DNA of 51,315 nucleotides from Nitrospirae bacterium CG02_land_8_20_14_3_00_41_53 (GTDB taxonomy: Bacteria; Nitrospirota; Thermodesulfovibrionia; Thermodesulfovibrionales; SM23-35), in the NCBI GenBank assembly GCA_002780895.1, contig PEUB01000106.1:1-51315 (forward strand), given 5' to 3'. The first letter of the stretch is position 1, and each line of letters opens with the position of its first letter. A program made the position numbers and the translations under genes. This document shows, piece by piece, positions 31,715 through 36,093 of this stretch. The notes under the pieces were generated by a model. The model made no database searches, was not told where the DNA came from, and saw nothing but the letters and a program-made list of their open reading frames with translations.

Positions 31715-32482
31715 ATGACAGTTGAGAATATTTACTCAAGACTAAGACAGACGGCTATAAGAACCGCAGAGTCACTGGGCGAGCTATCTTTTTATCCCAA
31801 TCACAAAGTCGAATTAGAGATATCACGTGAATCGTTTAAAACAGACATGCTCATAAAAAAAAGCCTCTCTTATATTGATGAGGCGTCTCTGAACGCTGGA
31901 CACGGTCTATCACATGCCGAGGCAGTAGCGCTTGATGCAGGGACTGTTATACAAGTCGAAGGCAGGCTTCAGAACATTAGCAGCAGCATGATACGCGAAC
32001 TAGTCGTTTATGTGCAGATAGCAGCTCTCCTTCACGACATAAAGCGTAAGGAAAAAGATCATACCATCGCTGGAAGCAATGAGGCAAGGAGGATACTGAA
32101 TGATTTTCTGATAGATGACAGCTATAAACGGTACATAGTTGCAGCCATCAGAAATCATGAGGCGTTTAAAGAGGTTTTAGAATCCGAAGATGAGAAGGCA
32201 GAACTAATCAGCAACTCATTGTATGATGCGGATAAGTTCAGATGGGGACCTGATAACTTTACCACCACGCTATGGCTGATGCTGGATTCTAATGATATGC
32301 CTGTGGAGATGTTATACAAAAATTTTTCAGGAAACTTAAAATATATAGAAAGAGTCAAGGCTACTTTCAGAACCCAGATCGGTAAAAAGTATGGCCCGGA
32401 GTTTATTGATATGGGTATTATAATTGGTCAGGCCATTTATAAAGAGATGTCTGCAATAATAGGCACTCAGTCAAAAATCTAA
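31715..32482 (+). CDS. HD-domain phosphohydrolase family protein
   Basis: 255 residues. An HD metal site is visible: His in GHGLSHAEAVALD, His-Asp in ALLHDIKRKEKDH, a further His in AIRNHEAF and the last Asp in SLYDADKFRWG. It resembles stand-alone HD hydrolases of unknown substrate. TTGACA at 31671 may be its -35 element; the matching -10 is poor, and no Shine-Dalgarno precedes the ATG. Confidence 0.75.
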   Translation: MTVENIYSRLRQTAIRTAESLGELSFYPNHKVELEISRESFKTDMLIKKSLSYIDEASLNAGHGLSHAEAVALDAGTVIQVEGRLQNISSSMIRELVVYVQIAALLHDIKRKEKDHTIAGSNEARRILNDFLIDDSYKRYIVAAIRNHEAFKEVLESEDEKAELISNSLYDADKFRWGPDNFTTTLWLMLDSNDMPVEMLYKNFSGNLKYIERVKATFRTQIGKKYGPEFIDMGIIIGQAIYKEMSAIIGTQSKI

Positions 32483-32646: not shown

Positions 32647-33666
32647 ATGGAGTTCCCTGTAGATACAGATATTTTGATCCAGCCTCCCCAGATTATGGGG
32701 AAAAGCCCAAAGATGCTTAAAGTTTTCAAGGGTATCGGGCGGGTTGCCATAAAAGACCTGGCAGTTCTTATATCGGGGGAGAGTGGAACATATAAGGAAC
32801 TGGTTGCAAAGGCGATACACTATAACAGCCTGCGCCTTAATGGTCCTTTTATTGCGGTCAGCTTCGTATCTATCCCCAAGGACATTATCGAGGCGGAGTT
32901 ATTTGGATATGAAAAAGGTGCATTCACAGGGGCGACTGAAAAAAGAACCGGTAAGATAGAGGAGGCAAATAAAGGAACACTCTTTCTCGATGAGATATTA
33001 GAGGTAGACTTAAAGCTCCAGGCAAAGATCCTGCGTTTTATACGGGAAAAGGAATTTAATCCTCTCAACAGTAATAATTCATTTAAGGCAGATGTCAGGA
33101 TAATTGCTGCAACCAACAAGGACATGAAAGAGGCTGTATCTAACGGGAAATTTATAGAAGACCTTTTTAATAGTTTCAATCATTTACATATCAAGCTACC
33201 TCCCCTCAGAGAAAGAAAAGAGGATATACTGCCCATTGCAAAACATTTCCTGAAAGAAGCTATCAGGAAATTTGAAACAGAACCGAAGGAACTCTCTAAA
33301 GATGCAAAGGATTTTCTTGTAAGATACGAGTGGCCAGGGAACGTGCGCGAGCTGGAGAATACTATAAAAAGAGCTGCCGTGCTTTCAAGAGGTGCAGTTA
33401 TAGGAAAAAAGGACCTCCTGCTTGAAGACGTCGGTTCTTACTCGATTAAGGAGTTCCTCGAGGAAAAACTTAGACGTTATTTAAAAGAAATGACAAAACT
33501 TGAAAACTGTTACCTCTATGAGACTGTGCTTTCGGAGGTAGAAAGTTCGCTTATTACGATAGTCCTTAAAGAGACTGGAGGCAACCAGCTCAAGGCTGCA
33601 AAAACTCTTGGTATAAATAGAAATACCTTAAGGGCAAAGATAAAAAAATACAAAATCCGCATATAA
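32647..33666 (+). CDS. PspF-like sigma-54 activator with degenerate ATPase site
   Basis: 339 residues: an AAA+ domain from the N-terminus, no receiver domain, and a Fis-type HTH (QLKAAKTLGINRNTLRAKIK) at the end. The sigma-54 contact loop GAFTGA and Walker B GTLFLDEI are intact, but Walker A reads GESGTYKE (Tyr for the second Gly). The arginine-finger segment, normally FREDLYYRL, reads FIEDLFNSF, losing both arginines. Binding to sigma-54 and DNA may remain while ATP hydrolysis is doubtful. The rest of the fold, including LPPLRERKEDI and YEWPGNVRELEN, is well kept, so this is not random decay. Confidence 0.85.
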   Translation: MEFPVDTDILIQPPQIMGKSPKMLKVFKGIGRVAIKDLAVLISGESGTYKELVAKAIHYNSLRLNGPFIAVSFVSIPKDIIEAELFGYEKGAFTGATEKRTGKIEEANKGTLFLDEILEVDLKLQAKILRFIREKEFNPLNSNNSFKADVRIIAATNKDMKEAVSNGKFIEDLFNSFNHLHIKLPPLRERKEDILPIAKHFLKEAIRKFETEPKELSKDAKDFLVRYEWPGNVRELENTIKRAAVLSRGAVIGKKDLLLEDVGSYSIKEFLEEKLRRYLKEMTKLENCYLYETVLSEVESSLITIVLKETGGNQLKAAKTLGINRNTLRAKIKKYKIRI

Positions 33667-35743: not shown

Positions 35744-36093
35744 ATGATTATTAAAGTGGAATCTTTAAAAGATTTAAAAAAATTGATAAATGGGAAAAAG
35801 AATCAAGATATCAATGTGATACAACTTAATACCATTGCAAAAGAAGTTCAGAATGAATATAAGCGAGCTGCATCAGAGGTGGGAATCAAGATTGACGAAT
35901 TGAAAGCCATGTGGGATAGGATAACCAAGGCAAAAACCCTTATCAGCGAAGCAAAGAATGAATTAATAACCCGTAACCTGAGATTGGTAGTGAATGTTGC
36001 TAAGAATTATATTGGAAGAGGTCTTTCCTTGCTTGACCTTGAAAACTTAAACATTCAAAGAGGCGCAGTGCATTGAAGGTCTTAATCGGTTAA
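35744..36093 (+). pseudogene. RpoD/RpoH-type sigma factor gene with its middle deleted
   Basis: ATG 35744 opens about 95 residues of a sigma-70 family protein: AKNELITRNLRLVVNVAK and NYIGRGLSLLDL are region 1.2/2.1-2.2. The frame then shifts. From about 36049 a second frame reads KLKHSKRRSALKVLIG and stops at TAA 36091, the typical end of region 4. Core-binding region 2.2 onwards, region 3 and most of region 4 are lost. 350 bases, out of frame. The stop overlaps the converging HPF remnant. Confidence 0.65.

Follow-up and report, generated by a model that had tools for sequence, protein, structure and literature searches.

Fis is a major chromosome-organising protein, and to our knowledge no intermediates between it and NtrC are known. 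Morett and Bork put forward the descent of Fis from NtrC in 1998 (cited in PMC7166090). Members of the activator family that have parted from sigma-54 have been described. The NtrC of Caulobacter lacks GAFTGA, acts at sigma-70 promoters, shares sites with nucleoid proteins and requires its ATP site (PMC10274813), so NtrC can adopt such a role. The NtrC of Rhodobacter capsulatus, as cited in the same paper, has an oligomeric state at sigma-70 promoters that depends on nucleotide. TyrR, HupR, DhaR and VpsR are pseudo-activators without GAFTGA (PMC3162934). In PspF, substituting either arginine of the RxDxxxR motif drastically reduces ATPase activity (PMC3419264). A graded series of reductions down to a stand-alone helix-turn-helix (HTH) is not reported for the TyrR-type activator relatives in the literature we examined, and we found no paper on a reduced NtrC or Fis in the Nitrospirota, in a search that missed most subscription journals. 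We believe the Thermodesulfovibrionales contain such a series, and we begin with a member of it that still has GAFTGA.

The window, the whole stretch of 51,315 nucleotides analysed here, comes from a draft Nitrospirota genome of 2.0 Mb in 159 contigs. It encodes an NtrC-like protein whose features are collected in the table below. An earlier note on this DNA had claimed an altered Walker A motif, the loss of both arginine-finger positions and of the receiver, and the retention of GAFTGA, Walker B and the Fis HTH. All of this holds. Walker A reads GESGTYKE as stated, the RxDxxxR motif reads IEDLFNS with only the aspartate retained, Pfam finds no Response_reg match, and the retained elements are present by sequence and by Pfam, which places HTH_8 at residues 295-335. 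The start codon is common to close relatives (MEFPVD.., MGFHVD..).

Features of the NtrC-like gene and of two neighbouring open reading frames in the window
Feature	Position	Strand	Basis or remark
Receiver-less, ATPase-dead NtrC orthologue, 339 aa	32647..33666	+	ORF with ATG start
AAA+ core (Sigma54_activat), residues 16-182	32692..33192	+	Pfam, 196 bits
Degenerate Walker A GESGTYKE (canonical GESGTGKE), residues 44-51	32776..32799	+	Sequence
Intact GAFTGA loop, residues 91-96	32917..32934	+	Sequence
Intact Walker B LFLDEI, residues 112-117	32980..32997	+	Sequence
FIEDLFNSF replacing FREDLYYRF, residues 169-177	33151..33177	+	Both RxDxxxR Arg lost
AAA+ lid (AAA_lid_14), residues 188-258	33208..33420	+	Pfam
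Fis-type dimerisation and HTH domain, residues 266-339	33442..33663	+	Match to E. coli Fis
255-aa protein	31715..32482	+	No Pfam match
110-aa ORF resembling part of RpoD	35744..36076	+	Groups with the full-length RpoD proteins of relatives

The best NCBIfam model for the protein is the NtrC model TIGR01818, at 352 bits against a cut-off of 558.6; an intact relative has the same best model and also misses the cut-off, at 474 bits. The C-terminal domain matches E. coli Fis at 8.8e-12 (phmmer), and the predicted fold of the AAA+ domain matches NtrC1 (1ny5) with an rmsd of 1.3 A over 238 aligned columns. The same genome (G000) encodes sigma-54 (PF04552, E 2.2e-56) and seven other sigma-54 activators, all of them canonical (GESG(T/S)GKE, F-R-x-D-L-x-x-R-L). 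Chance or sequencing error behind the Walker A change can be rejected, since the tyrosine stands in nine independently assembled genomes and the seven other activators are intact.

Compared with NtrC (NR-I), the window protein is orthologous by descent and has the same order of AAA+ core, lid and Fis HTH, but it has no receiver and no NtrB, and its Walker A and RxDxxxR motifs are degenerate. It resembles the Caulobacter and Rhodobacter capsulatus proteins in being an NtrC that has departed from sigma-54. In those proteins receiver and kinase are retained and the ATP site is required, whereas the window protein has lost receiver, kinase and ATP site and keeps GAFTGA. It shares with TyrR, HupR, DhaR, VpsR and other activator relatives with altered motifs an AAA+ fold of the activator type that has ceased to work with sigma-54; these are, as far as we know, not NtrC orthologues by descent.

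We searched 60 relatives with the window protein, then the whole family (20 genomes), and, using a profile built from the C-terminal domain, 176 genomes across the order; most of the genomes compared are drafts. On an rpoB tree the window falls in a clade of 12 members (SH-aLRT 98) within the order Thermodesulfovibrionales of the Nitrospirota. All 12 carry an orthologue of about 340 aa that has no receiver and a damaged ATPase site. The earlier note had suggested looking for orthologues with the same substitutions, and they are found: the Walker A glycine is tyrosine in nine of the 12, cysteine in one, and retained in two in which the lysine has become arginine, a change that occurs in three members in total. 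The second arginine of RxDxxxR is absent throughout the clade. The window alone has an exact GAFTGA, which is altered or absent in the other 11. Together with its sister G009 it forms the earliest branch, and by its motifs it is the least eroded member. The P-loop residues G44, E45, G47 and T48 do not vary among the 12 dead members, and mean conservation in this set is 0.83 for the P-loop against 0.59 for the entire AAA+ core.

Most sister families encode a complete NtrC next to NtrB, with the receiver in place and the motifs GESGTGKE, GAFTGA and FREDLYYRF. The window protein is about 60-74% identical to these receiver-containing proteins and 50-72% identical to its orthologues within the family. 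On a gene tree of the Fis domain the proteins group by family, so descent is vertical, although the tree is built on 88 columns, has little resolution inside families, and leaves the stand-alone form of G006 unplaced. In three genomes of genus g2, two of them only 80-86% complete, no orthologue was found, so the protein can be dispensable.

The loss is not peculiar to this clade. The orthologue is a receiver and HTH with the AAA+ domain missing in family f7 and in G087, and the HTH alone in f8 and in G077. The f7 proteins (L205-L209, L219) join receiver and Fis HTH in about 220 aa, and the acidic pair of the receiver is partly lost. In family f10 the orthologue is receiver-less with a shortened AAA+ domain; its proteins (L201-L204) have about 300 aa, lack receiver, GAFTGA and Walker B, and retain lid and HTH. 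This family includes complete genomes and is presumably a cultured genus. Genus g39 of f3 has a receiver-less orthologue with a degenerate P-loop, while in f4, f9, parts of f3 and G139 the orthologue is full-length with every motif ruined. If loss is irreversible, the activation half broke down at least eight times on the rpoB tree, from which the very long-branched genome G057 was excluded for this count; unordered parsimony, which permits regain, needs six changes.

The kinase goes with the activator. We searched 78 genomes for the NtrB-type kinase whose gene adjoins intact NtrC, accepting matches with E below 1e-45. It is present in all 29 genomes with an intact orthologue and in none of the 46 in which the orthologue is broken or reduced, nor in the single borderline case (G051, GAFPGA) or the two genomes that have no orthologue. 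The rule holds in all breakdowns, though genomes of the same family are not independent. This tally treats as intact two f6 genomes in which GAFS(E/D)A replaces GAFTGA; their proteins (L036, L037) are full NtrCs with kinase and ATP site intact, possibly sigma-54-independent forms that retain their ATPase. In G051 the kinase is gone while few motif residues have changed, a hint that the kinase is lost early. No NtrB kinase orthologue was found in the genome of the window, and no credible remnant of a receiver or kinase was found upstream of the window gene.

In another four genera of the window's family (G003, G004, G006, G011) all that is left is a short ORF corresponding to the C-terminal domain, 79-107 aa after the start codon. 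In three of the four it directly precedes one and the same gene, which we identify from its sequence as tgt. This gene also comes after the long form in G008, G009, G010, G014 and G017, and is close to it in G007. We found no credible remnant of an AAA+ domain upstream of the stand-alone forms. It might be argued that these genera acquired a foreign Fis. This can be rejected because one stand-alone form is 61-80% identical to the C-termini of the local degenerate NtrCs and about 40% identical to Fis, and because three of these forms sit at the same locus. Their genomes branch outside the dead-AAA+ clade on the rpoB tree, so the stand-alone forms need not have passed through the tyrosine stage.

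The likeness of the short proteins to Fis is close. The region from helix A to the HTH matches the Fis of gamma- and betaproteobacteria without gaps over 70-77 aa, and the length is similar to the 98 aa of Fis. The best NCBIfam model of the stand-alone relatives is the Fis model NF001659 (69.6-71.4 bits, below the cut-off of 99). Their best PDB match in a profile search is Fis as well (6.8e-17, ungapped over 77 positions), and Foldseek places Fis at the top for one predicted structure, with modest TM-scores of 0.52-0.58. Even the gene neighbourhood is reminiscent, as the Fis gene also adjoins a tRNA-modification gene, dusB in E. coli, where these relatives have tgt. There are differences too. 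The match begins at Fis residue 20-27 and leaves most of the invertase-stimulating N-terminal hairpin region uncovered, and the window protein still has its AAA+ domain attached and has an origin that can be traced to the local NtrC. Outside the phylum, an alphaproteobacterial MAG of the Holosporaceae also has a stand-alone Fis-like ORF of 87 aa (L132), perhaps another reduction of the same kind.

Selection has treated the two halves of the protein differently. We estimated omega by the method of Nei and Gojobori, a simple model applied to few pairs. For the AAA+ domain it is 0.23-0.31 in dead pairs within genera of the window's family; the pair of the window and G009, which is distant and has a dS near saturation, gives 0.13. 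The corresponding values in intact pairs are 0.015-0.035. For the Fis domain it is 0.03-0.06 in the window's family against 0.014-0.044 in intact pairs. For those pairs of stand-alone forms that allowed an estimate of dS, omega is 0.11-0.16. Mean pairwise identities in the clade are 0.43 for the AAA+ domain, 0.62 for the lid and 0.80 for the Fis domain; in intact sister families they are 0.76, 0.72 and 0.77. Judged by these values, constraint on the dead AAA+ domain is relaxed, yet present, and constraint on the Fis domain is at the intact level.

The simplest objection to a function is that the gene is merely on its way to being lost and encodes a protein that selection no longer sees. The earlier note had held that canonical orthologues together with relaxed selection would indicate simple decay. 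Both were found, in that the AAA+ domain is relaxed, its motifs were lost stepwise, and genus g2 has no detected orthologue, but the DNA-binding domain is not relaxed. Its low omega and its 80% mean identity between genera do not fit a protein without selected function, nor does its retention through eight independent breakdowns, and the reading frames are open in all 12 long and four short members. We regard decay of the whole gene as very improbable. The contrast between a relaxed AAA+ domain and a constrained DNA-binding domain argues instead for erosion of one half of the protein.

The other objections concern the AAA+ domain. The window protein itself retains GAFTGA and Walker B, which counts against the reading that we prefer below. 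GAFTGA might let a dead protein act as a sigma-54 decoy or poison by blocking the holoenzyme or entering mixed rings. The genome has sigma-54 and seven canonical activators with which to do so, the fold is predicted to be intact, and some PspF variants at R162 and R168 bind sigma-54 without productive remodelling (PMC3419264). However, the PspF-sigma-54 complex was trapped with ADP-AlF, so it depends on a bound nucleotide, and the altered Walker A of the window protein should make such binding harder. In relatives the AAA+ domain is also under relaxed selection, and the gene persists in the 11 clade members that lost GAFTGA and in four more genera without any AAA+ domain. For the last reason the mixed-hexamer role put forward in the earlier note is not supported as a conserved function, and we consider the decoy in general unlikely. 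That note had also proposed DNA binding without remodelling. DNA binding without ATP-driven remodelling is indeed to be expected of a DNA-binding domain under purifying selection as in intact NtrC, but the holding of sigma-54 as a conserved function is unsupported, since the Fis domain persists while GAFTGA or the whole AAA+ domain is lost. Alternatively, the P-loop may bind a ligand without hydrolysis and so set the oligomeric state of a regulator at ordinary sigma-70 promoters. The precedent is Rhodobacter capsulatus NtrC (cited in PMC10274813), and the four invariant residues, the higher conservation of the P-loop and an AAA+ omega below 1 leave room for some nucleotide- or scaffold-dependent role. 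Against it, the glycine before the lysine has become tyrosine, three members have arginine for the lysine, and sister genera that retain the DNA-binding part have no AAA+ domain at all. We doubt that nucleotide sensing is what keeps this protein.

We think it probable that the window protein is a kinase-independent, Fis-like DNA-binding protein, part-way from NtrC to a Fis-like form, in which the AAA+ domain is at most a scaffold. By sequence comparison it is descended from NtrC, the damage to its ATP site is shared with its orthologues, receiver and kinase are lost, selection centres on the C-terminal dimerisation and HTH domain, and the end state is a stand-alone protein. The NtrC orthologue of this lineage would have lost its activation half. 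With the NtrB-type kinase and the receiver gone it would not be switched by phosphorylation. With the P-loop glycine and both RxDxxxR arginines lost, neither ATP hydrolysis nor opening of sigma-54 promoters is expected. We infer that the window protein has lost its ATPase and binds DNA constitutively as a dimer, independently of phosphorylation, most likely as a repressor or an architectural co-regulator. The AAA+ fold would survive at most for oligomerisation or ligand sensing. The window protein would then be one stage of a reduction that other genera of the family have carried through to a stand-alone Fis-like protein.

We looked for its operators with the pattern TGCAC-N5-9-GTGCA in 12 genomes, having discarded the reversed pattern as a control because it is not composition-matched for a palindrome. 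The pattern occurs in 3-21 places per genome, and the E. coli spacing is not in excess in the genome of the window. No NtrC-type operator was found in the 12 genomes, as each palindrome examined sits inside coding sequence, and two of the matches fall in one stretch of a single conserved gene.

Two neighbours in the window deserve mention. In relatives rpoD-dnaG-yqeY adjoins the degenerate NtrC gene, and for this reason the 110-aa RpoD-like ORF may be what is left of the former locus. The 255-aa protein has an HD-phosphohydrolase-like motif by eye and follows atpB-atpE in G009 too.

Pseudo-activators and the idea that Fis came from NtrC are already known, so it is the series that is of more interest than the single protein. 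It is still living, from intact NtrC through kinase-less or ATPase-dead proteins and receiver-HTH forms to a bare Fis-like protein, and the loss occurred at least eight times. The order of events would be loss of the kinase, then of the receiver or the ATPase, and then of the AAA+ domain. Living intermediates and repeated loss make the proposed route from NtrC to Fis directly testable. A practical consequence is that counts of sigma-54 activators based on Pfam include dead ones. The evidence also hints at a selected function of NtrC DNA-binding domains for which phosphorylation and sigma-54 are both dispensable. We are evenly divided on the widest reading, that in the Thermodesulfovibrionales NtrC has turned naturally, repeatedly and by graded steps into Fis-like architectural DNA-binding proteins, re-running the proposed origin of proteobacterial Fis, and that their NtrC already had a DNA-binding role independent of sigma-54 and kinase. 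If this is true, selection would have kept that role whenever the activator half failed.
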